This document shows, piece after piece, positions 22,174-36,690 of a DNA stretch of 64,000 nt. The translations under genes and the position numbers were made by a program. This DNA is from Anaerolineae bacterium (lineage in GTDB: Bacteria > Chloroflexota > Anaerolineae > Aggregatilineales > Phototrophicaceae), in the NCBI GenBank assembly GCA_026645945.1, contig JAPKMO010000007.1, positions 1 to 64,000 of the forward strand. Reading direction: 5' to 3'. The notes beneath the pieces were generated by a model. The model saw only the letters and a program-made list of their open reading frames with translations. It did no database searches and was not told the DNA's origin. Positions within the stretch are counted from its first letter, which is position 1. Every line of letters starts with the position of its first letter.

Positions 22174-22207
22174 AACTCCTTGATATGCAGACGGTGTGAG
22201 GGCAGCG

Positions 22208-22240
22208 GCCCGGCGGATGTTACCCGCCGGGCTGTTTTTT
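22208..22240 (+). terminator. Rho-independent terminator of the UlaG operon
   Basis: A 9-bp GC-rich stem (GCCCGGCGG / CCGCCGGGC), a short loop, then TG and six T, 34 bp after the PfkB kinase stop. Confidence 0.85.
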
Positions 22241-22356: not shown

Positions 22357-22704
22357 ATGGAACCACAGCTTCTAAAAGAAATCCAGATGCTGCACGATCA
22401 GGTGTGTTATGCCCTGGGTGATCCCAAACGCCTGATGATCCTCTACGTTTTGTCGAACCAGGCGCAAAGCGTCAACGACATCGCGGAGGAACTGGATATT
22501 CCCCAACCCACCGTTTCCCGTCATCTCAAAATTCTGCGCGAGCGGGCGCTGGTCGAAGCGACCCGCCAGGGGCAGTCGGTGTATTATGCGCTGGCCGATG
22601 ACCGGCTGATTCAGGCGCTTGAACTGCTGCGCGGCATATTGCGCGACCGCATTTTAATGCAGGCCCAGGTTGTCCAGGTCGACCCTAAAACTGATTTTTC
22701 CTGA
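22357..22704 (+). CDS. ArsR-family transcriptional regulator
   Basis: 115 aa. YALGDPKRLMILYVLSNQAQSVNDIAEELDIPQPTVSRHLKILRERALV is a full ArsR winged helix, with TRQGQSVYYALAD as the wing. The usual metal-binding cysteines (ELCVCDL) are replaced by SVNDIAE, so it probably does not sense arsenic; related regulators sense persulfides or redox state through other cysteines, and none is evident here. The ATG at 22357 follows AGGGGG; an ATG at 22318 would lie too close to the promoter. It heads the respiratory sulfur operon. Confidence 0.82.
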   Translation: MEPQLLKEIQMLHDQVCYALGDPKRLMILYVLSNQAQSVNDIAEELDIPQPTVSRHLKILRERALVEATRQGQSVYYALADDRLIQALELLRGILRDRILMQAQVVQVDPKTDFS

Positions 22705-22720
22705 TTTTAAGGAGAAAGTG

Positions 22721-23494
22721 ATGAAAAAAGGCGCTTTGTTTCTGGTTTTAAGCATGGCGCTGCTGCCGGTGCTGGCGCTGGTGATGGTGACGCCGGTGGA
22801 CGCCCAATGCGGGTCTTCGGCGTCGTCGTGCAAAAACTGCCACGAAGTGAATGCAGAATATCCTGTAAACGCTTCGGGCGAGTGGCACGTGAGCCATGCC
22901 TTTGGCGATTTTTGTTCTTTCTGCCATGCCGGGAACGTCCAGGCTATCGAAAAAGATGCCGCACACGAGGGCATGATTTACCCGCTGTCCGATGTGGCGG
23001 GGTCATGCCAGACCTGCCACCCGAACGATTATATGGAACAGGCCGGAGTGTATGCGGTGGCGCTGGGCGTTGATTTAAGCGCGGCGGACGGCGGCGGGCC
23101 GGGCTCCGGCGGCGGCGCGCAAGACCTCGCCGACATCGTATCCAAACCGATTTCCGCCCCCGGCGAACGCCATGCCAGCGGCGCGCTGATTGACTTCAAC
23201 CGGCGTTACGAAATTGAAGTTCTGGGCTTGACCGATACCTCGCAGCTTGGCAACCTGATTGTGGCGCTGGCGGGGATGGCGCTGCTGGCTGTAGGCGGGG
23301 CGCTGGTGTGGAAGTTTGAGAACCTGGGCGAAGCGTGGCGCAAAGCGCGGGCCGTGCCGGATGAAGATTGGCGACGGCTGGCCTACAGCGGCGCTTATGA
23401 AACGCGCGGCTCGGTCGTGCCGGGGCGGCCTCACCCCGCCAGCGGTTCGGACGTGGGTGAAAAGCCTGTTTCGAGAGGAGAGAAAAACGTATGA
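22721..23494 (+). CDS. Membrane-anchored triheme c-type cytochrome
   Basis: 257 aa from the ATG at 22721 (AAGGAG 7 bp upstream). A signal peptide ends near VDAQ (residue 29). Three CxxCH haem sites lie at 37-41, 65-69 and 96-100, a Gly-rich stretch at 124-133 follows, and one membrane helix at about 176-197 leaves the C-terminus in the cytoplasm. It should pass electrons at the outer face of the membrane. It overlaps the next gene by 4 bp and belongs with the molybdopterin enzyme and the other cytochromes downstream. Confidence 0.82.
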   Translation: MKKGALFLVLSMALLPVLALVMVTPVDAQCGSSASSCKNCHEVNAEYPVNASGEWHVSHAFGDFCSFCHAGNVQAIEKDAAHEGMIYPLSDVAGSCQTCHPNDYMEQAGVYAVALGVDLSAADGGGPGSGGGAQDLADIVSKPISAPGERHASGALIDFNRRYEIEVLGLTDTSQLGNLIVALAGMALLAVGGALVWKFENLGEAWRKARAVPDEDWRRLAYSGAYETRGSVVPGRPHPASGSDVGEKPVSRGEKNV

Positions 23495-24033
23495 GATGGC
23501 TGCTGCGACAGCTTGAAAAAGATTTGTGGTCGCCGGAAGTCGCCGGCATCGGTCTGGGGTTGGTCTATGTGCTGGCGCTGTGGCTGGCGAACCGTTCGCC
23601 GGGCGCGTCCGGCACGTTTTTTAACGTGGCGGCGGTAGTCGGCAAGCCGCTGACCGCCGGCGACCCGGCCAATCAATTTTTTGTTTCTATGTTTCCGCCG
23701 GTGACGGAAGGATTGGGCTGGCAGTTCTGGATGGTAGCCGGGATTTTCTTCGGCGCGCTGGCTTCGGTTTTGATCGGTCGGCACTTTAAGCTGACATGGA
23801 TGCCGGTGGAACAGTGGAAGGATGTTTTTGGCGGCGCGGTGTGGAAGCGGTGGGTGATCGCTTTTATCGGAGGCGTGATTCTGCAAATCGGCGCGGGGAT
23901 CGCAGGGGGCTGCACGAGCGGCCTGGCGCTGGCGGGCGGCGTGCAGCTCAGCCCGGCAGCGTTTCTGTTCATCCCCGGCATTTTTATCAGCGGCGCAGTC
24001 GTACAACTGCTGGTTTACCGGAATAAATATTAG
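23491..24033 (+). CDS. YeeE/YedE-family sulfur-compound transport protein, first half
   Basis: 180 aa with about four hydrophobic segments. The signature GAGIAGGCTSGLALAGGVQLSP with its central cysteine matches the YeeE/YedE (thiosulfate transporter, PmpA/PmpB) family. Full-length YeeE has two such halves; here the halves are separate genes. It likely moves thiosulfate or a sulfane sulfur carrier across the membrane next to the Psr-type enzyme. Confidence 0.8.
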   Translation: MRWLLRQLEKDLWSPEVAGIGLGLVYVLALWLANRSPGASGTFFNVAAVVGKPLTAGDPANQFFVSMFPPVTEGLGWQFWMVAGIFFGALASVLIGRHFKLTWMPVEQWKDVFGGAVWKRWVIAFIGGVILQIGAGIAGGCTSGLALAGGVQLSPAAFLFIPGIFISGAVVQLLVYRNKY

Positions 24034-24077
24034 GCCGCCGTCGGGCATTTAACAGACGGCTGAAAGGGGATTTAAAG

Positions 24078-24719
24078 ATGACCCTCACAATACCGGACAT
24101 CCTCATCGCGCTGGGCGTGGGGTTTATTTTTGGCTGGGTGCTGGATAAGGGCGGCCTGAACCGCTACTACAAAATCGCCAATGTGTTTCGTTTTACCGAC
24201 CTGACGGTGCTGCGTTTTATGATGACCGGGATGCTGGTCGGCATGGTGGGCATCTATACACTGCGGCACTTCGGGCTGTTAAACCTGACGGCAGTGACGG
24301 CCACTGCACTGGCCGGGAACTTCATCGGCGGCGCAGTGTTCGGGGTGGGCATGGCCCTGTCCGGCTTCTGCCCCGGCACGTGTATCGCCGGCATTGCTCG
24401 CGGTCAGCTGGACTATCTCATCCCCGGTTTGCTGGGTTTTTTGACGGGCGGCCTCATCTTCGGCGCGCTGTATCGCACCGATCTTATCCAATGGCTCATC
24501 ACCGCCGGGCGGCCTGAGCTGGCCTATGCCAAACTGCCGGAAATCCTGGGCGTTGAACCGCTGCTGCTGGCGTTTGTGTTTTCTGAGGCTATTTTGATCT
24601 TCCTGTACGTGCTGGCGAGAACCCAAGCCCGCCGCCCGGACGGTTTGGAAAAGGTCGTCGAGCAGGAGCGGGTGCTGGCAGGTCTGGAAGAGTCGCAGCC
24701 GCAGGCGGTTGGGGATTAA
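24078..24719 (+). CDS. YeeE/YedE-family sulfur-compound transport protein, second half
   Basis: 213 aa, about five hydrophobic segments. The family motif appears as GVGMALSGFCPGTCIAGIARGQ, with two cysteines. AAAGGGG lies ahead of the ATG. It is the partner of the preceding half-size gene; the pair would form one channel with inverted halves. The C-terminal 30 residues are charged and cytoplasmic. Confidence 0.8.
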   Translation: MTLTIPDILIALGVGFIFGWVLDKGGLNRYYKIANVFRFTDLTVLRFMMTGMLVGMVGIYTLRHFGLLNLTAVTATALAGNFIGGAVFGVGMALSGFCPGTCIAGIARGQLDYLIPGLLGFLTGGLIFGALYRTDLIQWLITAGRPELAYAKLPEILGVEPLLLAFVFSEAILIFLYVLARTQARRPDGLEKVVEQERVLAGLEESQPQAVGD

Positions 24720-24773
24720 ACGAGATTTTCCGTAAGGGCAGCCGGCAGGCTGCTTTTGCAGGAAGGGAAAAAG

Positions 24774-26981
24774 ATGACCGAAGAAATTACGCGCGAAAAA
24801 TGGCTTTTGTCCCGACGGCAGTTTTTAAAAGGGGCGGCGCTGGCAGGTACGGGCGCGGCGCTGGCGAAAGCCGGCATCTTTGACCTGACACCGGCGCGGG
24901 CGCAGGGGACGACACACTTTTTGCCCGGCCCGACCGCCGATTATCAGGTGTATACGATGTGCGAAATGTGCGTCTGGCGCTGCGGCGTGGTGGCTAAGGT
25001 GCGGAACGGCGTCGTCGAAAAGCTGGACGGAAACCCGAATCACCCGCACTCATTGGGCAACCTATGCGCGCGCGGGCAAAGTGGTTTGATGATGACTTAT
25101 GACCCCGACCGCGTGTTGGCTCCGCTGATGCGCGTGGGCGAGCGCGGCAGCGGGCGTTTTCGCCAGGCGACCTGGGATGAGGCGCTCGATTTCACCGCCG
25201 AGCAGATGCTCCGCATCAAAGATACCTACGGGCCGCAGGCGATGGTGTTTTCCTCCACGCATAACCTCAGCCAGCCGTTGTTTGAAAACCTGCTGAATGC
25301 TTACGGCAGCCCGAATTACGGGACGCAGCGCAGCCTGTGTTTTAACGCGATGGTCACGGCGCACCTGCTCACCTATGGCATTCAGGAGCCGGCGCGCCGT
25401 TATGATGGCATGAAATATATCATCCTGACCGGGCGCAACCTGATGGAGGGCATCAGCACCAGCGAAACGCGCCAGTTGATGGAGGTCATCAGCGAGGGCG
25501 CGCACGTCGTCGTACTCGACCCGCGCTTCACCAAAACGGCAGCGAAAGCCGGTGAGTGGCTGCCGATCAAACCGGGTATGGACTTGGCGTTCCACCTGGC
25601 GCTGATTAACGTCATCGTCAGCGAAAACCTGTACGATAGAAACTTTGTAAACAACTATACGGTCGGTTTTGATGAACTGGCCGAATCCGTCAAGCCATAC
25701 ACGCCGCGCTGGGCGGCTGAACTGACCGAAATCCCCGAAGCGACCATTTACCGAATCGCTCACGAATTCGCGGCTGCCGCGCCGTTTGCTTTCGCGCATC
25801 CCAACTGGCGCACCAGCAACTTTGTGAACAGCTTCCAGACGGAGCGGGCTGTCGCTGTTCTTAATGCGCTTATCGGTATCTGCCCGGAGCAGGGGGACTG
25901 CATCTTTCCTGAAGAAGATCACGTCGGGTTAGGTTCGCCGCCGCAGCCGGCTTATCCCCGTATCAGCGCGCAGCGGCTTGACGGCGTACCCTGGAAATAC
26001 CCGCTCGTGCCGCTCAAACTGGGCGTGTTCCAGGAAATCCGCGATAACATCCTGACCGGACAGCCCTACCAGGCGCGCGGCTGGTTCTTCAGCCGCCAGA
26101 ATCCGATCATGAGCCTGCCTGACCAGGCTAAAACTATCCAGGCGTTTGAGAAACTGGAATTTATCGTCTCGGTGGACATCATCCTGAACGACTCGTCGTG
26201 GTATGCCGATGTGATTCTGCCGGAGGCGACCTATCTCGAACGTTACGACCCGGTTCATGCGGTCGGCAACCGCGTTTTCATCCGCCAGCCAGTTGTCGAA
26301 CCGCTTGGCGAGGCGCGGTCGGCGCTGTGGATTTACCGCGAACTGGGCCGGCGGTTGGGACTGCAAGACTTTTTCCAGTACGTTGATGAGGAAGATTATA
26401 TCCGCCAGCAGATTGCGCCGTTCGGCGTCACGCTGGAGCATCTGAAGCAGGTTGGTTATTTTGACGTGCCGCGCGAGAAAAAGAGCGGCGAGCGCATCTG
26501 GGATACTCCCAGCGGTAAGGTCGAAATCGCCTCGGAAACGCTGCGCCGGGCGGGTTTTCCCGCCGTGCCGGTATGGGAAGCGCCGCCTGAACCGCCAGCG
26601 GGGCGCTTCTATCTGCTCACCGGCAAGGTTGGGCAGCATACGCAGTTCGCTACCCAGAACAACGCCTATTTAACCGAAGTGGATTATCACACCCATGACC
26701 TGTGGATGCACCCGTTGGCGGCGGCAGAGCGCGGCATTCGGGACGGCGATCTGGTGCGGGTGGCGAGCGATGTGGGAGAAGTCGAAATCACGGTTTGGGT
26801 GACGGAAGGCATTCGCCCGGACTGCGTTTATATGGCGCCGGGGTTCGGCCATACCAGCAAGGGGTTGAAAAAGGCATACGGGCGGGGCGCGAATGCCAGC
26901 CGCGTACACGTGACCTATACCGACCCGGTAAGCGGCGGCCAGGCCCTGACGCAGACCTTTGTGACGGTAGAAAAGGCGTAG
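24774..26981 (+). CDS. Psr/Phs-type molybdopterin oxidoreductase catalytic subunit (Tat-exported)
   Basis: 735 aa. The start at 24774 has AGGAAGGG upstream. SRRQFLK at 13-19 is a clear Tat signal, so the enzyme folds in the cytoplasm and acts outside. A [4Fe-4S] site uses Cys63, Cys66, Cys70 and Cys98. RSLCFNAM places Cys189 as the probable Mo ligand, as in polysulfide and thiosulfate reductases. The C-terminal molybdopterin-dinucleotide domain contains TGKVGQHTQFATQNN. With the sulfur transporters, polysulfide, thiosulfate or tetrathionate is the likely substrate; direction (reduction or oxidation) is not fixed by sequence. Confidence 0.82.
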   Translation: MTEEITREKWLLSRRQFLKGAALAGTGAALAKAGIFDLTPARAQGTTHFLPGPTADYQVYTMCEMCVWRCGVVAKVRNGVVEKLDGNPNHPHSLGNLCARGQSGLMMTYDPDRVLAPLMRVGERGSGRFRQATWDEALDFTAEQMLRIKDTYGPQAMVFSSTHNLSQPLFENLLNAYGSPNYGTQRSLCFNAMVTAHLLTYGIQEPARRYDGMKYIILTGRNLMEGISTSETRQLMEVISEGAHVVVLDPRFTKTAAKAGEWLPIKPGMDLAFHLALINVIVSENLYDRNFVNNYTVGFDELAESVKPYTPRWAAELTEIPEATIYRIAHEFAAAAPFAFAHPNWRTSNFVNSFQTERAVAVLNALIGICPEQGDCIFPEEDHVGLGSPPQPAYPRISAQRLDGVPWKYPLVPLKLGVFQEIRDNILTGQPYQARGWFFSRQNPIMSLPDQAKTIQAFEKLEFIVSVDIILNDSSWYADVILPEATYLERYDPVHAVGNRVFIRQPVVEPLGEARSALWIYRELGRRLGLQDFFQYVDEEDYIRQQIAPFGVTLEHLKQVGYFDVPREKKSGERIWDTPSGKVEIASETLRRAGFPAVPVWEAPPEPPAGRFYLLTGKVGQHTQFATQNNAYLTEVDYHTHDLWMHPLAAAERGIRDGDLVRVASDVGEVEITVWVTEGIRPDCVYMAPGFGHTSKGLKKAYGRGANASRVHVTYTDPVSGGQALTQTFVTVEKA

Positions 26982-26984
26982 GTC

Positions 26985-27719
26985 ATGGCTGAGAAAAAAC
27001 GATACGCATTCGTAATTGACCCCGCGCGCTGTATTGACTGCCGCGCGTGCCTGGTGGCCTGCCGCGCCGAGTGGAACACGCCCGCTGGGCAAACGCGCAT
27101 CTGGGTTCACAGCGACGGGCCGCAGGGTGTTTTCCCGAACTTGTCGCAGACGTTTATCCCGGCGCAGTGCCATCACTGCGAAGACCCCTGGTGCGTGGAT
27201 GCCTGTCCCACCGGGGCGACCTTCAAGCGCGAGGATGGGCTGGTGTTGATTGATGAAGAAGCCTGCATCGGCTGTGGTCTGTGCGTGAACGCCTGCCCGT
27301 ATCAGGCGCGTTTTCGTAACACTGTAACCGGCAAGGCCGATAAGTGTTCGGCCTGCTTCCACCGCGTTGAAGCGGGGGAAATGCCGGCCTGCGTGGCGAC
27401 CTGCATCGGGGGGGCGCGGCTGTTTGGCGACCTGAACGACCCCGAAAGCACCGTCAGCCGGGCCATTGCAGGCCGCGCTGTCTACCGCCCGATCACCAAC
27501 GAGGTGAATACGCAGCCGATGACGCTGTACCTATCATCTCCAGCAGCTGCGGCGGTGCAGGTCAGCCCGCAGCCGCGCGAACCCGTCCCGGCGGAAACGT
27601 TCTGGCACACCGTCGCGCTGCCGGTGGTTAAAGCGGCGGTGGCATTGGCCTTCGGCGGGCAGGCGCTGGCTTTTATCTTCCAACTGTTTAAGGGCGAAAA
27701 CGAGTACGAAGAGGCATAG
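26985..27719 (+). CDS. Four-cluster ferredoxin subunit with C-terminal membrane anchor (PsrB/FdnH-like)
   Basis: 244 aa. Cysteine groups CIDCRACLVAC, CHHCEDPWCVDAC, CIGCGLCVNAC and CSACFHRVEAGEMPACVATC give four [4Fe-4S] clusters, the wire between catalytic and membrane subunits. Residues about 205-230 (TVALPVVKAAVALAFGGQALAF) form a single membrane helix, which PsrB lacks but formate dehydrogenase FdnH has. It starts 3 bp after the catalytic gene. There is no Tat signal, so it would travel with the catalytic subunit. Confidence 0.85.
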   Translation: MAEKKRYAFVIDPARCIDCRACLVACRAEWNTPAGQTRIWVHSDGPQGVFPNLSQTFIPAQCHHCEDPWCVDACPTGATFKREDGLVLIDEEACIGCGLCVNACPYQARFRNTVTGKADKCSACFHRVEAGEMPACVATCIGGARLFGDLNDPESTVSRAIAGRAVYRPITNEVNTQPMTLYLSSPAAAAVQVSPQPREPVPAETFWHTVALPVVKAAVALAFGGQALAFIFQLFKGENEYEEA

Positions 27720-27723
27720 GCTG

Positions 27724-28563
27724 ATGTCCCACGAAAAATTGACCTTAGAGGAGCGCGAAGCCCTGCGCCAGCAAACGCTGGTGAAACACTATACCGCCAA
27801 CATCCTGACTCACTGGTTTAATGTCGCCATGTGGCTGTTCCTGCTGCCAACAGGGCTGGGGATTTTGCTGGGCAAGATATATCCTTTTGTGCCGGAAGCC
27901 TGGAATAATCTGATGAATCAGATTTTCGGCGGGTTAGCGCCGTTAATTCACTGGCATTCCATTTTTGGGCAAGTCTGGTTCTTCGTGCTGATTTTTAACG
28001 TGCTTTTCGGCTTTCGGAAGTACTTCATCCCCTTCGCAGCGCAGCGTATGTTCATGGATAGGGATGATTGGAAGTGGCTGATGATTCGCCCCTTCCAGAT
28101 GTTTGGGTTCAAGAAAAATCAGGAACTGCCGCCGCAGGACGCCTACAACGGCGGCCAGAAGCTGTACAGCTATCTGGTGGTGGTCGGCACGGTGGGTATC
28201 GGCGTCACGGGGTTGATTCTGACCTACAGCGAGGCCATCCCGACATCGCTCCAGTGGATTATCCAGTGGGCGATGCCGCTGCATTTTCTGGCCGTTGGCA
28301 CGACGTTCGCGGGGGTGATTATCCACGTGTACATGGGCGCGATCATGCCGGAGGAACGGCAGGCGTTTTTCAGCATGTTCACCGGCAAGGTGAACGGCCT
28401 GTACGCTTACCTGCACCATCGTAAATGGTACGAGCGTAAAATGGCCGAAAAGGCCGCCTGGGAAGATTTTTATAACCGACAGCTTGAGGCTGTGGGTGTG
28501 GAAACCCCTGCCGAGGGCGGGCTGGAAGCTCCGCCTGCACCCGAACCAGCGGGAGGGGATTAA
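27724..28563 (+). CDS. Cytochrome b subunit of the molybdopterin enzyme (FdnI-like)
   Basis: 279 aa. An N-terminal TANILTHWFNVAMWLFLLPTG helix with His is followed by LIHWHSIFGQVWFFVLIFNVLF and later MPLHFLAVGTTFAGVIIHVYMG; these histidines suit two b haems as in the FdnI family. It would exchange electrons between the FeS subunit and quinone. The C-terminal 40 residues are charged and Pro-rich. The enzyme thus has a formate-dehydrogenase-type membrane arm rather than the NrfD-type arm usual for Psr. Confidence 0.8.
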   Translation: MSHEKLTLEEREALRQQTLVKHYTANILTHWFNVAMWLFLLPTGLGILLGKIYPFVPEAWNNLMNQIFGGLAPLIHWHSIFGQVWFFVLIFNVLFGFRKYFIPFAAQRMFMDRDDWKWLMIRPFQMFGFKKNQELPPQDAYNGGQKLYSYLVVVGTVGIGVTGLILTYSEAIPTSLQWIIQWAMPLHFLAVGTTFAGVIIHVYMGAIMPEERQAFFSMFTGKVNGLYAYLHHRKWYERKMAEKAAWEDFYNRQLEAVGVETPAEGGLEAPPAPEPAGGD

Positions 28564-28564
28564 C

Positions 28565-29203
28565 ATGCGGCGACTTGCGATTATACTGCTGCTGGCTTCG
28601 ACCCTGGCCGCGTGCGCCGAAGCGGCCCCAACGCCGCGACCGACCGAAGTTGTGCCGACGATTGCGCCGGAACCGACGTTTGACCCGGCGGGCGATGTCC
28701 GGCATGGCGCGGTTTTATTTACCACCTGGCGCTGCGATAACTGTCACGGCGGGCTGGCCGAGGGGCGCATCGGCCCGCCGCTGGCGCAAACGCGGCTGTC
28801 CCCAGCGGATTTCACCGAAGCGATCCGCGAAACGCGACCGCCTAAACCGGCTTTCAGCGAAAGCGAATTGAGCGAAGCCGATGTGCGCGACCTCTACGCC
28901 TGGGTGTTGTCGCTGGACGCCGGAGTCCAGGCGGCTGCCGCGCCCACGCTGGGGGAGGGGGAAATCCTGGGGATGCAGCTGTACACCGAAAGCGGCTGCG
29001 ACCGGTGTCATGGCGCGTTTGCCCAGGGCGGCAGCGCGGCGGCGCTGGTGGGGTATCCCGAAGACGCGGCGGCCTTCCTGCTGGCGATGTCGTCCAGCAC
29101 AGCTGATGTGCCGGAGCATGACCTGGAGGAACTTGACGCGGGACTCATGCGGCGCTTGCATGGCTGGCTGCAAGCTGGGGCCGACCCGAACAGCGGGTGT
29201 TAA
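28565..29203 (+). CDS. Diheme c-type cytochrome lipoprotein
   Basis: 212 aa from the ATG at 28565, with GGGAGGGG upstream. Residues 1-17 form a lipoprotein signal (lipobox LAAC, Cys17), so it is anchored at the outer face of the membrane. A Thr/Pro-rich linker leads to two cytochrome c domains with haem sites at 57-61 (CDNCH) and 145-149 (CDRCH). It starts 1 bp after the cytochrome b stop. Likely role: electron carrier between the membrane and the multiheme partner. Confidence 0.83.
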   Translation: MRRLAIILLLASTLAACAEAAPTPRPTEVVPTIAPEPTFDPAGDVRHGAVLFTTWRCDNCHGGLAEGRIGPPLAQTRLSPADFTEAIRETRPPKPAFSESELSEADVRDLYAWVLSLDAGVQAAAAPTLGEGEILGMQLYTESGCDRCHGAFAQGGSAAALVGYPEDAAAFLLAMSSSTADVPEHDLEELDAGLMRRLHGWLQAGADPNSGC

Positions 29204-29232
29204 AAACGCCGGCAGTGGTGGAGCGATAGACT

Positions 29233-30510
29233 TTGCCCGAACCCTCGGTCAAGCCGGCTCGCATTATCCTTCCGCTGGTGGCGCTGGTCGGCCTGGTGCT
29301 GGCGCTGGCGGCGTCGCTGATGGCGGTGCAGCGGCCTGTGCTGGAACTGACGCCGGCGCGAACCGGCCAGCCGGAACGCTGCCTGACCTGCCACAACGGG
29401 ATTGAGGAAATCAGCCCGTCCCATCCGCTAGAGGACTTTGGCTGCGTGTCCTGTCATGGCGGGGGGGCGTTGGCGCTGGAAAAAGAGGCCGCCCATGATG
29501 GTTTGACGGCGAACCCGTCCGCGCTGGATGTAGCGCAGCAGTTTTGCGGAGAATGCCATGCCGGGCAGATCGTCCTGACGCAGCGCAGCCTGATGGCGAC
29601 CTATGCTGGGGCGATTAGCCTGGTGCGGCGGGCATTCGGCTTGCAGCCGGACGAAACAGCCTTGTTCGCCGTCCAGCCGGTAGATCATTTGCAGGCGTTC
29701 GCGCCGGATGAAAATGCGCCGCCGCCGGTGCGTAGTTTTGCCACCAACTGTCTGGGCTGCCACCTGTACGCCGAGCCGCGCGAGGCCGATTATTATCACC
29801 GCAGCACCGGCTGCGCAAGCTGCCATATGCTGGCGGAAACGGACGGCCTCTACCAGGGCGGCGACCCATCCATCCCGAAAGATCAACCCGGATACGCCGC
29901 GCGCCACGAATTTACCCTGGCGATTCCCTATACACAGTGTAACCACTGCCACAACCGGGGCAACTACGATCTGCGGACGATGACGTTTTTGGAACGTGAT
30001 GATCTGCCGCCGCCGCAAAATACATCCGAGCGTGAAAAGCGGCTGCGCGAGTATTACCAGCCTATCGGCCAATTCACACTTTGCGAATGGGAACTGGACT
30101 GTATAGACTGTCACACATCGTTAGAGGTAATGGGCGACGCGCAGTTATACAGCAGCCGCAGCCAGGCGCAGTATGTCCAATGTTCGACCTGTCATGGGAC
30201 ACTGGATGCGCCGCCCGACGAGATGGTGATCGCGGCTGAGGATGACCCGGCGCTTAAGCGGGCGCGGCTCAACCCAAATGTTGATTTGGAGATCGGAATG
30301 ACAGTGATTGCCACTTCGCGCGGGGAGGCTTTTTGGCACGCGCAGAAACACGATGGACGCTGGACGCTGACGGGCAAAGCAGCCGGCCAGCAGTACGATA
30401 TTCCCCTGGTGATGGGGTCGGGCTGCCAGCAAAAACCTGACCAGCAGGCCAGCCACTACTGCCACGAATGCCATGCTTATGATCGTGATTCCGCGCTGGC
30501 TGCGCCGTAG
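29233..30510 (+). CDS. Membrane-anchored nonaheme c-type cytochrome
   Basis: 425 aa, start TTG with GGAG 9 bp upstream. One N-terminal membrane helix (about 11-31) without an obvious cleavage site anchors it. Nine CxxCH sites are visible at 50, 71, 105, 173, 194, 236, 290, 317 and 410. The spacing of the last (near the C-terminus after a 90-residue haem-free stretch) is unusual. I do not recognise it as a hydroxylamine-oxidoreductase or tetrathionate-reductase homologue. It may store or relay electrons for the sulfur enzyme, or catalyse a reaction itself. Confidence 0.82.
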   Translation: MPEPSVKPARIILPLVALVGLVLALAASLMAVQRPVLELTPARTGQPERCLTCHNGIEEISPSHPLEDFGCVSCHGGGALALEKEAAHDGLTANPSALDVAQQFCGECHAGQIVLTQRSLMATYAGAISLVRRAFGLQPDETALFAVQPVDHLQAFAPDENAPPPVRSFATNCLGCHLYAEPREADYYHRSTGCASCHMLAETDGLYQGGDPSIPKDQPGYAARHEFTLAIPYTQCNHCHNRGNYDLRTMTFLERDDLPPPQNTSEREKRLREYYQPIGQFTLCEWELDCIDCHTSLEVMGDAQLYSSRSQAQYVQCSTCHGTLDAPPDEMVIAAEDDPALKRARLNPNVDLEIGMTVIATSRGEAFWHAQKHDGRWTLTGKAAGQQYDIPLVMGSGCQQKPDQQASHYCHECHAYDRDSALAAP

Positions 30511-30516
30511 GCCTGT

Positions 30517-31098
30517 ATGCTGACGACGGCGATTCTGGTGGGTGGGCGTTCCAGCCGCATGGGGAGCGATAAGGCGCTGCTGGTTTTGAAAGGCAAGCCG
30601 GTTCTCCAGCATGTGATCGAACGGGCAGCCCTGCCTGGCGCGGCGATTTTTTTGATCGCCAACGAACCGGAAAAATATGCTGCGTTTGGACTGCCGATTT
30701 TCTCGGATGTGAAACCGGGTGCGGGGTCGTTGGGTGGACTATATACCGCTTTGGCGCACAGCCCAACCGATTATACGCTGTGTGTGGCCTGCGACATGCC
30801 GCTTTTGAATACAAATTTGCTGATTTATATGGCGGGGCTGCGGCAGGAGTATGATGCAGTTGTGCCGCGCATCGAGGGTAAGCCGGAGCCGTTCCACGCG
30901 GTTTACCGCAAGACGTGTTTAGAGCCGATTCGGGCGCGATTGGAACGCGGCCAACTGCGCGTCTCGGACTTTTATCAGGATGTCAGCACCCGGTACGTTG
31001 AGGAGGCTGATCTCCAGCAGATTGACCCGGAGCTGCATTCGTTTCTGAACATCAATACGCCGGATGATTTGGCGCGGGTTCAGGCGCTTGTGGGGTAA
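30517..31098 (+). CDS. mobA: Molybdenum cofactor guanylyltransferase MobA
   Basis: 193 aa. The nucleotide-binding opening TAILVGGRSSRMGSDKALL matches the MobA signature LxGGxSxRMGxDK, and VACDMPLLN holds the metal-binding Asp. The enzyme joins GMP to molybdopterin to make the bis-MGD cofactor needed by the Psr-type catalytic subunit encoded upstream. It starts 6 bp after the nonaheme gene and ends the operon. Confidence 0.88.
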   Translation: MLTTAILVGGRSSRMGSDKALLVLKGKPVLQHVIERAALPGAAIFLIANEPEKYAAFGLPIFSDVKPGAGSLGGLYTALAHSPTDYTLCVACDMPLLNTNLLIYMAGLRQEYDAVVPRIEGKPEPFHAVYRKTCLEPIRARLERGQLRVSDFYQDVSTRYVEEADLQQIDPELHSFLNINTPDDLARVQALVG

Positions 31099-31119: not shown

Positions 31120-31470
31120 TTATGTTGGCACGTCCTCCGTCTCCACTTCGATGGATTCGATGTAAAACTCCTCGCCCGATTCGACAGCCACAATGTCGCT
31201 GCCGCAGTTGGGGCAGGTGAAATCGCCGCCCAGGTAATAACGATAGCCGCAGTCGTAACAGAGCATCACCGCCGGCTCACGCCGGAAGTGCAGCCGCGCG
31301 CCTTCGGCAATGGTTCCCTGGCTGATGATGTCCCAATAAAACTGTACCGACTCGTCCACAAATGAAGCCAACTGGCCGATAACCAGATGGATGTCGGTGA
31401 TGCGCCGGGCTTCGCCGGCATGATTCAATATGATTTCAAGGACGCTCTGGGTGACAGGGAGTTCGTGCAT
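31120..31470 (-). CDS. hypA: Hydrogenase nickel-insertion protein HypA
   Basis: 116 aa. The invariant N-terminal MHE (Ni-binding His2) and the zinc pairs CYDC and CPNC (about 71-74 and 87-90) are intact. HypA delivers Ni to the hydrogenase large subunit. It is the last gene of the minus-strand group 3b operon, converging on mobA with only about 20 bp between. HypBCDEF are not in this window. Confidence 0.9.
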   Translation of the reverse strand: MHELPVTQSVLEIILNHAGEARRITDIHLVIGQLASFVDESVQFYWDIISQGTIAEGARLHFRREPAVMLCYDCGYRYYLGGDFTCPNCGSDIVAVESGEEFYIESIEVETEDVPT

Positions 31471-31546
31471 CAGGCTCAGTCAGTTGTTTTTGGTTTATTG
31501 TACCCGCCACAGCCAAGGACAACAATGGGGTGTCACCGACGGAATG

Positions 31547-32005
31547 TTATGAGTATAATATTTCCGCTGCCATTTGTTCAACCAGTGCCGGGAGAACTGC
31601 TTCGACTGCCGGTGATAAACTGATGCCCAGGTCGAAGTTCGCGCCCTCGATGCCATAAATGACCAGGCGGGGCGGCAGTTCATCCAGCGCCCGCGCCATC
31701 TCCACCGCTTCGGCCACGCTGAAGGCATGGGTCGAGTAGTGGAAAAATTCGGCAGGGATGGGTGAAAACCCGGCGTCCAGTCGGTAAATCGTGCCGGGGG
31801 CAGCGCCGGATGAAACGGCATCTACCAGAAAAACGGCTGCCGCGCCGCCCCAGGCCGCCATCAGCGCTGCGCCTTCGCCGCTTTGCTCGATGACACGCAG
31901 GCCGGGCAGCTGCCTGGCTTGCAACATGCGCGCCGCGATCAGCCCAACGGCATCATCACCGCGAAACTCGTTACCGATGCCAACGCATAAAACTGAACTG
32001 CTCAT
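31547..32005 (-). CDS. Hydrogenase maturation protease (for the group 3b large subunit)
   Basis: 152 aa from the ATG at 32005, which puts the conserved CVGIGNEFRGDDAVG right after the start; Glu and Asp here bind the Ni of the precursor. VFLVDAVSSG and STHAFSVAEA are further family motifs. It follows the group 3b large-subunit gene by 69 bp and should remove that subunit's short C-terminal peptide after Ni insertion. A separate protease gene serves the group 4 enzyme. Confidence 0.87.
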   Translation of the reverse strand: MSSSVLCVGIGNEFRGDDAVGLIAARMLQARQLPGLRVIEQSGEGAALMAAWGGAAAVFLVDAVSSGAAPGTIYRLDAGFSPIPAEFFHYSTHAFSVAEAVEMARALDELPPRLVIYGIEGANFDLGISLSPAVEAVLPALVEQMAAEILYS

Positions 32006-32074
32006 AGGGTTTGCAGTCACCGGCTTAAAACTCTTCCAGGGGCATGAATAGGCCATGCCCCTTATATGAGTAGG

Positions 32075-33364
32075 CTACTCGCGCTCGATATTGACCTTCA
32101 AAAAGTGTACCGAACAGGAGATGCACGGATCGTAATTTCGGACGGCCTGCTCGCACTGCCAGGTCAGGCGGTCGTCCGGCAGGTCTGCCGCCCGTTCGAC
32201 GAAATGCCACAGATCATTTTCAATCGTTTTCTGGTTTTGCGATGTCGGGGGGATGATCTTGGCATCGAGAATCAGCCCGTTGGCATCAAGCGTGTAACGG
32301 TGGTACAGGATGCCGCGCGGCGCTTCGGTGCAGCCCCAGCCTGTGCCGGCGCGGGGCCGCACGTCTACGACCGGCTGCTCTGGCATTTCGTAGGCTTCGA
32401 TGATCCGCAGCGCCTCGTGGCAGGCGTAGAGCGTTTCCAGGCTGCGGACGACGATGCTCTTGAAGGGGTTCAGCACCGGCGGTTTGGCGCCGACCTCGTG
32501 GGCAAGGGCCTGAATGTCTGTGGGCAGTTTGTCGAAGTTGAGGTTGAAACGCGCCAGCGGCCCGACGAAATACGAGCCTTTGCCCTTGATGACCGAGTGA
32601 AGCGCCGTCGAGTGCGCGACGTGTTCTTCGGCAAAGGTGTTTTCGTAGTCTGAGATGTCAATGTCCACACCTTTGTTGGAAACCAGCCGACCCTCGTTGT
32701 AGGGATATTCATTGGGGTGGCGCAGCGCGACAAATTCGTAATCCTGCTCGAACTCCGGGAAGGGCAGCCCCGCCGTGAAACGCACCATGTCTTCCGCCAG
32801 CTTTCGGGCGAGCGTTAATTTTTCGCCCAGTTCAAGAAGCTGGCGTTTGTTCGGCACTTTGTAGAAACCGCCGACGCGAACGTTAATGGGGTGAATTTCG
32901 CGCCCGCCGACCAGCGTGACGATTTCGTTGCCGATTTTTTTCAGCAGCAGACCATTTTTGACAACTTCGGGGTACACTTTCGCCATCTGGATGGCATCCG
33001 GGTAGCCCAAAAAGTCCGGCGTGTGCAGCATGTAGGCATGCAGGACGTGGCTTTCAATCCACTCACCGCAGTAAAGCAGCCGGCGCAGCTCGCGGAGCTG
33101 GCCGCCGACCGTCACGCCGAGGGCGCGCTCCATCGCATGGACGGAACTCATCTGGTAGGCCACCGGGCAGATGCCGCAAATGCGGGCGGTGATGTCCGGC
33201 GCTTCGGTGAAGCTGCGCCCCCGCAGGAAAGCCTCGAAAAAACGAGGCGGCTCGAAAATCTTCAGCTTGACATCCACCACGCGGTCGTTTTTGACCTTAA
33301 CGTGCAGGCCGCCTTCACCTTCAACGCGGGCGAGATAATCAACCTTGATAGTTCGGGTGTTCAT
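32075..33364 (-). CDS. NiFe hydrogenase group 3b (sulfhydrogenase) large subunit
   Basis: 429 aa from the ATG at 33364, after AGGAGAG; longer readings upstream lie inside the small-subunit gene. The Ni-Fe ligands are RICGICP (Cys63, Cys66) and DPCISCSVH (Cys414, Cys417). After His420 only nine residues remain as the peptide to be cleaved. Gene order (FeS subunit, FAD subunit, small, large) matches soluble NADP-linked group 3b enzymes, which interconvert H2 and NAD(P)H and can reduce sulfur in vitro. Confidence 0.9.
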
Positions 33365-34133
33365 AGACCTCGCTCTCCTTTCTGAATGCGTCGGCGTAAG
33401 CGTTAAAGCTGCGGAATGCCCGCACGATGTCCGGCGCGCTGACGCCCAGTTTGCGCCACCACTCGCCCAGAGCTGCGGTGTTGGGCGTTTCCATTGGCCC
33501 GAAGCAGCCATAACAGCCCCGGTTGTAAGCCGGGCAGAGCGCACCGCAGCCGGCATGTGTTACCGGCCCCAGACAGGGCGTGCCGTGCGCGACCATCACG
33601 CAGACTGTGCCGCGCTGCTTGCATTCCACGCATACGCTGTACGAGGGGGTGTTGGGTTTGCGCCCGTTCAGGTAGGCGCTGAGTACCTCGACCAACTGGT
33701 ATTTGTTGACGGGGCAGCCGCGCAGTTGAAAGTCTACGAACACGTGATCGGCAATGGGGGTGGATTTTTCCAGCGTTTCGATATAGGCCGGCGTAGCATA
33801 AACCGCTTTAACGTAGCTGTTAACATCTTTGAAGTTTCGCAGCGCCTGGATACCCCCGGCGGTGGCGCAGGCGCCAATCGTCACCAGGAATTTAGAGCTT
33901 TTGCGAATTTGATGAATACGCTCGGCATCATGCGGGGTCGTGATCGAACCCTCGACCAGCGACACATCATAGGGGCCGCGCACAACCGAGCGCGTGGCCT
34001 CCGGGAAATAGGCGATTTCGATTGCTCCGGCGACGGCCAGGAGTTCGTCCTCGCAGTCCAGTAAGCTCAACTGACAGCCATCGCAGGAGGCAAATTTCCA
34101 GACGGCGAGTTTGGGTTTATGGTCACGCGGCAT
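33339..34133 (-). CDS. NiFe hydrogenase group 3b small subunit
   Basis: 264 aa. [15 protein letters not shown] carries the proximal-cluster CxxC. Further cysteines in IGACATAGG and RGCPVNK complete that cluster, and a C-terminal Cys-rich stretch ([22 protein letters not shown], then [17 protein letters not shown]) binds two more. The ATG at 34133 is chosen for the GGGAG upstream. It overlaps the large-subunit gene by 26 bp. No signal peptide, so the enzyme is cytoplasmic. Confidence 0.9.
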
Positions 34134-34135
34134 GG

Positions 34136-34996
34136 TTATATCTCCCACATGGTAAGCCAGTTTTGCATCTGGCTGTATGGATAAACGGGGCCGTTTTTAC
34201 AGATGAAGGTCGGCCCAAACTGACAATGGCCGCAAAAGCCGACGGCGCATTTCATGTTCCGCTCCATCGAGATGTAGATATTATCGGGATTGACGCCGCG
34301 CTTCTGTAGTTCGATGGCGGTGAAACGCATCATCACCTCCGGGCCGCACACCATTGCGATGGTGTTCAGCGGGTCGAAGGGCGCTTTGGGGATGAGTTTG
34401 GTGACGACGCCGACGTTGCCGTGCCAGCGGGTATTGGCGTAGTCTACCGTGACGTAAATTTCCAGGTCGAAGCGCGCGCGCCATTTCTCCAGTTCCTTGC
34501 GGAAGAGGATGTCTTCCGGGCTGCGACAGCCATACAGCAGCACAATTTTGCCGTAGCGGTCGCGCTGGGCGAGTATCTGATAAAGCGCGGGGCGCAGCGG
34601 GGCCAGACCGATGCCGCCCGCCACGAATACCAGGTCGTTACCTTTCGCCGCCTGAACCGGCCAGGCGCTGCCGAAAGGCCCGCGCACGCCGATGACATCG
34701 CCGATTTTGAGTTCCCGCATCGCGCGTGTGACCGTGCCGACGACGCGCGTGGTATGCACCAGCGTTTCGGGGTGCAGGGGGTCGCCGCTGATCGAAACGG
34801 GAATCTCGCCAACGCCGTAGACGTAGAGCATGTTAAACTGACCGGCTTCAAAGGGAAATGTCTGATACCCCTCCAGAGAGACTAACTCGACGGTGAAGGT
34901 ATCATAAGACTCTTTGAGGATACGATGGATGCGGAACAATCCCGGTAGCATTGGGTCGGCAGCGGTCAGTTTTTCGGTGAGCAGATTTTCAACCAT
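34136..34996 (-). CDS. Group 3b hydrogenase FAD/NAD(P)-binding subunit (HydG/HyhG-like)
   Basis: 286 aa. A ferredoxin-reductase FAD domain ([22 protein letters not shown]) precedes the NAD domain ([16 protein letters not shown]), and a C-terminal [2Fe-2S] site uses the cysteines of [17 protein letters not shown]. It resembles dihydroorotate-dehydrogenase electron-transfer subunits and passes electrons between NAD(P)H and the FeS chain. The ATG at 34996 overlaps the upstream cyclic-nucleotide-binding gene by 8 bp. Confidence 0.88.
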
Positions 34997-35441
34997 AGAT
35001 GTCCAACACCTGTAGTCTAGTCGCGTGCAGGCGATCAATGACAATGGCGGCGAAGCGTTTCATCAGTTCGTAACCAAGATCGGTATCCGCGTCGCATTTG
35101 CCGCGCAGGCAGGCGCCATCCAGGGCGATGGCGCGCGTCAGGCTGACTGCTCGCGCGCTGAAGTGCCATTTGTAAGGCGGGAACAGCCAAGACCAGCCGA
35201 GAATATCATCTTCGTGGACGGTGTAAATCGGAATCTGTCCCCGGCGGGGGTCGTGCAGTTCAATGACGACTTGGCCGTGCCGGATGAGGTAAAACGTGTT
35301 GGCCGGTTCGCCTTCGCGGAAGATGTAATCGCCGGGGTCGAAGCGCGCGTTGCTGCCGCACCCAGCGATTATATCAATATATTCGGGCTTGAGGTCCTGG
35401 AAAAATTTGGTTTCTTTGAGAATAGCGTCAAACGTTTTCAT
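34989..35441 (-). CDS. Stand-alone cyclic-nucleotide-binding-domain protein in the hydrogenase operon
   Basis: 150 aa, one cNMP-binding beta-roll: [29 protein letters not shown] (about 34-62), then the phosphate-binding cassette region and a C-helix. There is no DNA-binding domain. The cassette reads [10 protein letters not shown]...FSARAVS: the acidic residue normally contacting the ribose is not in place, though an arginine is, so the ligand may not be cAMP. It overlaps both neighbours (14 bp and 8 bp), which ties its translation to the hydrogenase. A regulatory or structural subunit is more likely than a transcription factor. Confidence 0.82.
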
Positions 35442-36597
35442 GTTTTGCCCCTTTTTTAGAAGTTTTGCCTCCGCCTGCGCGGACAGCCTGGACTTCCTCG
35501 GTGATGTCTATGCCCACCGGGCACCAGGTGATGCAGCGCCCGCAGCCGACACAGCCCGATGTGCCGAACTGGTCAATCCAGGTTGCCAGTTTGTGGGTCA
35601 GCCACTGGCGATAACGTGATTTGGTGGAATAACGCACACTGCCGCCGTGAATGTAGGAAAAGTCCATCGTAAAACAGGAGTCCCATTTTCGTACCCGTTG
35701 GGCCTGTTCGCCGGTCAGGTCGGTTACATCCTCGACGGTGGTGCAAAAACAGGTGGGGCAGACCAGCGTGCAGTTGCCACAGGTCAGGCAGCGCCGGGCG
35801 ACATCGTCCCAGCGAGGGCTTTCGTAGCTGCGGTACAGCAGTTCCTTCAGGTCATCGGTCTTTAATTCGCGCCCCATACTGGCGGCGGTTTGCGCCAAGA
35901 TGCGCTCGGCTGCCTCGATTTCGCCTTCACCGGCGGGGCGGTGGGGCAGCTCTCGCATTATTTCAGCGCCGGCCTCCGAGCCGATTTCGACCACAAAATA
36001 ATGGCGTTCGTCTTCCAGAATTTCGGTCAAAGCCAGGTCAAAGCCGGAAGACGCCTTTGGCCCGGTATTCATCGAGACACAGAAGCAGGTGCCGCCGGCG
36101 CGGCCACAGTTCACGGCGACGATGAAGGTATTCTCACGGCGAGCCTTGTAGTGCGGGTCCATAAACTCGCTGTAGAGGAAAACCTTATCCTGAATGGCGA
36201 TGGCCTGAAGCTCGCACGCCCGCACGCCGACAAAGGCGTAACGCGGGGACGCATCTTCCGCTGTGATCTGGAATGTACCGTTGCTACGGTGGGCTTCCCA
36301 CAGGGTCAGGGCAGGGGGATGTAAAAAACGCTTCCAGGACTGCGGGCTGGCGGTGTAGGCAAAGAGGGCTTTGCTATCGCTCTTTTCAAGACGATACGTC
36401 CCGGCAGACTGTGAGTCCGTCCATCCGACGGGAAATTCGTGGTCGGACTGAACTTCATCGTAGATTACCGCGCCATCGCGCACAGTTGGGCCGATGACGC
36501 GATAACCCTGAGCGTTTAAAACTTCGAGCAGCTTTTGCAAGTCTTTACGCTCAAAAATCAGAGGGGGTGAAACCGGAAAAGATGATGGTAGTGCCAT
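35428..36597 (-). CDS. Group 3b hydrogenase iron-sulfur subunit (HydB / AsrA-like)
   Basis: 389 aa from the ATG at 36597, with AGGAGG 10 bp upstream. The C-terminal half has two [4Fe-4S] motifs, [12 protein letters not shown] (about 270) and [16 protein letters not shown] (about 350), as in the beta subunits of sulfhydrogenase and anaerobic sulfite reductase A. The N-terminal part contains [19 protein letters not shown], a family hallmark. It is the first gene of the minus-strand hydrogenase operon and carries electrons between the FAD subunit and the small subunit. Confidence 0.87.
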
Positions 36598-36621
36598 AGG
36601 GTATAGTCCTCCTAATAATGA

Positions 36622-36690
36622 ATTGTATGGATCACCGCATTTTTTACGCATATGCCGAAAATACATGTTTAATTGTGCAAAAAGTCACAA
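36622..36690 (-). promoter_or_regulatory. CRP-type palindrome and possible promoter of the group 3b operon
   Basis: TTGTG (36673-36677) and CACAA (36686-36690) with an 8-bp spacer repeat the layout of the site at 22275. On the minus strand a good -10, TACAAT (36622-36627), has no matching -35. The site centre would lie about 66 bp upstream of the start point, near the class I activator position. It could equally act on the divergent group 4 operon. Confidence 0.5.

Follow-up and report, generated by a model that had tools for sequence, protein, structure and literature searches.

A conserved Psr/Phs-type molybdoenzyme operon with three c-type cytochromes suggests a sulfur-linked respiratory system in Anaerolineae

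Results

Gene Content of the Operon

We analyzed a 64,000-nucleotide stretch of an Anaerolineae genome (contig JAPKMO010000007.1; Phototrophicaceae, Chloroflexota), hereafter the window, and an operon in it that is predicted to join a molybdopterin enzyme of the polysulfide/thiosulfate reductase (Psr/Phs) type to c-type cytochromes. The ten open reading frames (ORFs) of the operon span positions 22357–31098, share the + orientation, and lie −4 to +54 bp apart (Table 1). Protein families were assigned by Pfam and NCBIfam profile searches, which returned ArsR, Sulf_transp (twice), Molybdopterin with a TAT signal, Fer4_11, Ni_hydr_CYTB, Cytochrome_CBB3, a cytochrome c3-type family, and MobA. Counting of CXXCH motifs gave three, two, and nine for the triheme, diheme, and nonaheme cytochromes, a total of 14 c hemes. 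Thus, the ten-gene operon and the 3 + 2 + 9 heme count described by a first-pass annotation of this DNA were both reproduced. The strong terminator of an upstream sugar operon sets that operon apart from the Psr operon. An inverted repeat in front of arsR is a candidate operator; no common palindrome was seen in relatives.

Table 1. Features of the Psr operon and its upstream region (positions in the window)
Feature	Position	Strand	Evidence
Intrinsic terminator ending upstream sugar operon	22204..22236	+	13-bp stem, 10 G-C pairs, T run
Candidate ArsR operator, inverted repeat TTCGCAcTTATTcAATAAtGCGAA	22301..22324	.	8-pair repeat; role from position only
ArsR-family regulator	22357..22704	+	PF01022 1.8e-16; NF033788 above cut-off
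Triheme c-type cytochrome	22721..23494	+	3 CXXCH; signal peptide; C-terminal membrane helix
YeeE/YedE half-transporter, GGCTSG Cys141	23491..24033	+	PF04143 6.3e-13
YeeE/YedE half-transporter, GFCPG Cys98	24078..24719	+	PF04143 4.6e-19
Psr/Phs-type molybdopterin subunit	24774..26981	+	Tat signal, 4Fe-4S, Mo ligand Cys189; alternative start TTG 24756
PsrB-type subunit	26985..27719	+	PF13247 1e-28; 16 Cys; C-terminal membrane helix
FdnI/PhsC-type cytochrome b, quinone-active membrane arm	27724..28563	+	PF01292 2.7e-21; TIGR01583 73 bits, under cut-off
Diheme class-I c-type lipoprotein, lipobox LAAC	28565..29203	+	PF13442 7.6e-15; N-terminus
Nonaheme c-type cytochrome, ExtM-like, N-terminal membrane helix	29233..30510	+	NF040943 E 5e-51; TTG start likely
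MobA-like molybdenum cofactor guanylyltransferase	30517..31098	+	PF12804 6e-35

Assignment of the Catalytic Subunit

Among the NCBIfam models, the catalytic subunit scored highest with PhsA (591 bits), followed by DmsA (263), formate dehydrogenase (255), ArrA (159), and TtrA (76). Since its 591.5 bits fall below the PhsA equivalog cut-off of 694 (NF012032), the protein is not filed as PhsA. The best PDB match was Thermus polysulfide reductase PsrA (447 bits), the next being acetylene hydratase (219 bits). Cys189, counted from the ATG at 24774, aligned with the Mo-ligand position of Thermus PsrA and was kept in 52 of 53 homologues; together with the Tat signal and the 4Fe-4S motif, this Cys ligand gives the protein the features of the Psr/Phs clade. 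His163 and Arg346 were conserved alongside the Mo ligand, and His163 was found across the clade formed by the cassette, as we call the operon and its counterparts in related genomes. In a tree of the dimethyl sulfoxide reductase family, for which plasmid-borne reference sequences were used, the cassette catalytic subunits grouped in a single clade with full support, neighboring PhsA (94/89) and apart from formate dehydrogenase and DmsA. By sequence, therefore, the catalytic subunit is assigned to the Psr/Phs clade and not to the formate dehydrogenases, and the first-pass proposal of a sulfur-linked Psr/Phs enzyme with Cys189 as its probable Mo ligand is borne out by the model scores, the PDB match, the conservation of Cys189, and the tree.

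Conservation of the Cassette

The GTDB genomes were scanned with a nonaheme alignment and two short peptide motifs, an approach by which more distant relatives would be missed. Homologues of the nonaheme cytochrome were located at 106 places, 80 of which were examined; all 80 were titled Chloroflexota, mostly Anaerolineae. At 35 loci at least 9 kb were available on both sides of the nonaheme gene, and psrA was present at 34 of these, with the Psr operon within ~10 kb. The other cassette genes, counted by similarity searches of mechanical ORFs rather than curated gene models, were the triheme cytochrome (33 of 35), YeeE (30), ArsR (30), a Rieske protein (29), and a bc-type cytochrome b (27). 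Conversely, of 61 genomes in the family of the window, 8 had close psrA homologues, and all five untruncated psrA loci, the window not counted, carried the nonaheme gene. Thus, the linkage of nonaheme cytochrome and psrA is not due to chance, and the gene linkage recognized earlier from one operon is conserved in relatives. The usual order was arsR, triheme, yeeE1, yeeE2, psrA, psrB, membrane arm, cytochrome b, nonaheme, and Rieske.

One locus pair (L013/L087, genome G081) encodes a nonaheme homologue of 50% identity without psrA on a 17-kb contig, together with cation-efflux-like, NifX-like, and Nbp35-like genes (names taken from the sequence start only). This locus may be read as use of the cytochrome independently of Psr. 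An FmdE-domain protein, absent from the window operon, lies near the nonaheme gene in L019–L021, L023, L024, and L026 (with a zinc finger in L019), and MobA is also found there in several.

An Exchangeable Membrane Arm

The 16 Cys residues of the PsrB-type subunit correspond to four 4Fe-4S clusters, and its membrane helix covers residues 210–228. Most relatives have a membrane arm of the NrfD type, whereas the arm of the window is of the FdnI type. The FdnI-type cytochromes b of the cassettes share seven invariant His residues (22, 30, 78, 187, 201, 231, and 232). When the two arm types were placed on the psrA tree, the FdnI type required at least four changes, and the base of the tree of arms was too poorly resolved to tell which came first. 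The sequences thus describe a membrane arm that is interchangeable between NrfD and FdnI types within one catalytic clade. The first-pass annotation regarded an FdnI-type arm as unusual for a Psr-like enzyme; PhsC of the enterobacterial thiosulfate reductase falls in the same Pfam family, PF01292, so Psr/Phs enzymes with such an arm are already known.

The c-Type Cytochromes and Their Location

The triheme cytochrome has three invariant His residues beyond the heme motifs and one invariant non-heme residue, Cys30, which could be a heme ligand or a sulfur-binding residue. Cys30 sits right behind the predicted signal cleavage site and was invariant in 49 of 49 sequences. The nonaheme cytochrome matched the ExtM model (NF040943) over residues 42–414 (373 residues) with 173.6 bits; the equivalog cut-off is 800, and the match therefore denotes a homologue only. 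By this similarity it is distantly related to ExtM of Geobacter. Its invariant residues are the nine heme His, His64, His88, His225, His411, and Met300, and Met250 was found in 75 of 76 sequences. Bis-His ligation is predicted for the hemes of the triheme and nonaheme proteins, with Met250 and Met300 as candidate ligands of two possible His-Met hemes. A PDB sequence search with the nonaheme cytochrome gave no significant match. Its AlphaFold model was weak (predicted local distance difference test score, pLDDT, 71; predicted template modeling score 0.54), and comparison of this model with the PDB by Foldseek gave no match, a result to be expected when a cytochrome is modeled in the absence of its hemes. 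The triheme model was also poor (pLDDT 61).

In most relatives, the nonaheme gene lies between genes for a b6-type cytochrome b and a Rieske protein, and the nonaheme proteins match ExtM about as well as that of the window. The Geobacter genes for ExtM, ExtO (a Rieske protein), and ExtP (a cytochrome b) occur together, and their products have been compared to a bc complex core (PMC5877670). For anaerobic bc complexes, too, a multiheme protein has been proposed as the acceptor for the Rieske protein (cited in PMC5317091). From sequence, the set in the relatives looks like a bc-type module with a multiheme c subunit.

A subset of the loci (L018–L026 and L040) has no bc-type cytochrome b beside the nonaheme gene and carries nine CXXCH motifs in the cytochrome, compared with eight CXXCH plus one CX4CH in most relatives. 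L019, whose PsrA is 86% identical to that of the window, retains a short remnant of a Rieske gene in which the cluster ligands are missing; the window has no such gene. The window genome has two further Rieske/cytochrome b loci elsewhere. The lineage of the window has lost its Rieske/cytochrome b module, making the window a derived member of the cassette family; owing to this reduction the bc link had not been seen by the earlier reader. In L020, L021, and L023, the nonaheme cytochrome and a Rieske-like protein form their own transcription unit apart from the Psr operon, with the Rieske ligands intact in L021 and L023 and altered in L020. Some of the separate nonaheme units among L020–L023 have their own ArsR gene.

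The heme proteins bear membrane tethers, namely an N-terminal helix (nonaheme), a C-terminal helix (triheme), and a lipobox (diheme). No Omp85 homologue was found in the window genome, a metagenome-assembled genome of 92.6% completeness in which absence is not proof, and no gene for a β-barrel/porin or a surface cytochrome occurs in the operon or cassette. Since Omp85 was not found, the heme proteins are unlikely to form a conduit through an outer membrane of the porin-cytochrome kind, which has a β-barrel partner. The heme chain most likely lines a single membrane on its outer side, and the extracytoplasmic electron conduit proposed in the first pass is not supported as an outer-membrane crossing. 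Export of electrons from sulfur compounds to minerals or partner cells would fit the 14 c hemes, all in membrane-tethered extracytoplasmic proteins, and the place of the ExtM family within a Geobacter electron-transfer cluster. The missing porin, surface cytochrome, and Omp85 genes, and the resemblance of the relatives' module to a quinol:cytochrome c oxidoreductase, make such export improbable.

Regulator, Transporter, and Sulfur-Processing Genes

The ArsR regulator has a single invariant Cys, Cys17 (counted from the ATG at 22357), found in 39 of 39 relatives. Sensors of the SqrR/BigR type have two Cys residues that can form a di- to tetrasulfide, which sets them apart from this regulator, and its scores lay under the cut-offs for BigR (55 of 155 bits) and TsoR (71 of 115 bits). 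In the transporter, Cys141 of the GGCTSG motif was conserved in 46 of 46 sequences and Cys98 of the GFCPG motif in the 24 of 24 rows having a letter there. In Cupriavidus, zero-valent sulfur is taken up through the split YedE1E2, each half of which has a conserved Cys that is essential (PMC10812762). The two PF04143 halves of the operon, with a conserved Cys in each, show the same arrangement, from which sulfur import is predicted. Genes for rhodanese, persulfide dioxygenase-rhodanese, and TauE adjoin the cassette in close relatives; the window genome encodes a 75% identical dioxygenase-rhodanese outside the operon and also carries a heme-copper oxidase.

Reduction of selenium or tellurium oxyanions has been proposed for the Geobacter ext cluster, and the YedE halves would then be a selenium transporter. 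The ExtM-like nonaheme cytochrome and weak matches of the transporter halves to YedE/FdhT selenium transporter models point this way, and some PsrA-like enzymes are selenate reductases. We consider this function very improbable: the PhsA score far exceeds those of the selenate reductase models, the transporter halves fit the YedE1/E2 arrangement, the neighbors in relatives are sulfur-oxidation genes, and the ExtM score (174 of 800 bits) is far under the equivalog cut-off.

Neighboring Hydrogenase Genes

End-to-end with the Psr operon, genes for HypA, a hydrogenase maturation protease, a cNMP-binding protein, and an NiFe hydrogenase occupy positions 31120–36666 on the minus strand. The hydrogenase is of the sulfhydrogenase type (Hyd/Shy subunits alpha to delta, group 3b-like). 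This operon also adjoins the cassette in the near-identical L018, but not in L019.

Discussion

We propose, with a probability of roughly 0.5, that the locus encodes, under ArsR control, a sulfur:menaquinone oxidoreductase that is bound to the membrane and connected to c-type cytochromes. PsrA, at the outer side of the cytoplasmic membrane, would act on sulfide or polysulfide (sulfane sulfur), PsrB would pass the electrons on, and the FdnI-type cytochrome b would exchange them with menaquinone. YedE1/E2 would bring in sulfane sulfur, which the persulfide dioxygenase-rhodanese of the cell could oxidize. In most relatives, the quinol may be re-oxidized by the cassette-encoded bc-type module of b6-type cytochrome b, Rieske protein, and nonaheme cytochrome; in the lineage of the window, the nonaheme cytochrome would have to be fed or drained by a different cellular bc complex or by the diheme lipoprotein.

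As to direction, we lean slightly toward net oxidation of sulfide or polysulfide over reduction because of the conserved YedE1E2 Cys residues, the dioxygenase and rhodanese genes, the bc-type module that would drain quinol to cytochrome c, and the potential of menaquinone. The midpoint potentials of polysulfide/sulfide (near −260 mV) and menaquinone (near −75 mV) favor oxidation with an ordinary menaquinone pool. Alternatively, the enzyme may work as a Phs-like polysulfide or thiosulfate reductase, with menaquinol oxidized at the FdnI-type cytochrome b, the sulfur compound reduced outside the membrane, and the heme proteins serving other branches of the chain. Its nearest characterized relatives, PhsA and Thermus PsrA, the PF01292 membership of PhsC, and the sulfhydrogenase-type hydrogenase operon next door are consistent with such a reductase. 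However, the conserved bc-type module and nonaheme cytochrome of the relatives and their dioxygenase/rhodanese neighbors are left unexplained, and the hydrogenase is adjacent only in L018 among the close relatives named above, so that this function is possible but doubtful.

Going beyond a sulfur:menaquinone oxidoreductase, the products of the whole cassette might work together as one sulfide (or polysulfide):cytochrome c oxidoreductase, with the Psr-type enzyme passing quinol locally to an ExtM-type Rieske/cytochrome b/multiheme module. The window would then have discarded the bc core, switched to a heme-b arm, and fed the multiheme cytochrome by another route. We offer this only tentatively and hold it to be rather unlikely.

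Several observations weigh against a sulfur-oxidizing system wired to cytochromes. No TorD-type chaperone (PF02613) was found in the window genome despite the Tat-exported molybdoenzyme, and neither a Rieske protein nor a b6-type cytochrome b is encoded next to the nonaheme gene of the window, which thus lacks the bc module. The match of the relatives' cytochrome b to ExtP was rejected as a specific marker, ordinary b6/bc-type cytochromes b of the same genome scoring equally. The characterized Psr and Phs enzymes are reductases. Co-occurrence with oxidases was likewise rejected as a marker of direction, as heme-copper oxidases were present in 27 of 32 carriers and 16 of 20 non-carriers, with no enrichment.

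The operon can be compared with four known systems. Enterobacterial PhsABC shares the catalytic clade, the four-cluster subunit, the PF01292 arm, and the gene order A-B-C, but identity is ~34%, E. coli PhsB is shorter, PhsA has Ser at the site of His163, and the window adds three c-type cytochromes, YedE1/E2, ArsR, and MobA. PsrABC of Thermus and Wolinella shares the catalytic and Fe-S subunits and, in most relatives of the window, the NrfD arm; in the window the arm is swapped to the FdnI type, and cytochromes and a transporter are added. The Geobacter ext cluster (ExtM-ExtO-ExtP) also has a multiheme ExtM-like cytochrome, beside which the relatives encode a Rieske protein and a b6-type cytochrome b. 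It differs in that the window cytochrome has 9 hemes instead of 12 and scores below the equivalog cut-off, and in that the window operon has no porin and is Psr-coupled. BigR-type sulfide-response operons with YedE1E2 likewise combine an ArsR regulator with split YedE1/E2, but the window regulator has one conserved Cys and the dioxygenase is encoded outside the operon, elsewhere in the genome. The first-pass annotation knew of no described system of this composition, and our literature search, which covered few subscription journals, found no description of the cassette either. The parts each belong to known families; what is new is that they are combined, that the combination is conserved, and that the arm is exchanged.

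These features suggest an undescribed way of coupling sulfur chemistry to respiration. Because NrfD and FdnI arms were exchanged at least four times within one catalytic clade, the energetics of the two arms become directly comparable. If the cassette is indeed one functional unit, it would amount to a new form of sulfur lithotrophy within Anaerolineae. Members of this class abound in sludge, sediment, and groundwater and are usually regarded as fermenters. The cassette would give many of their uncultured lineages a sulfur-linked respiration where routine annotation reads a plain thiosulfate/polysulfide reductase.

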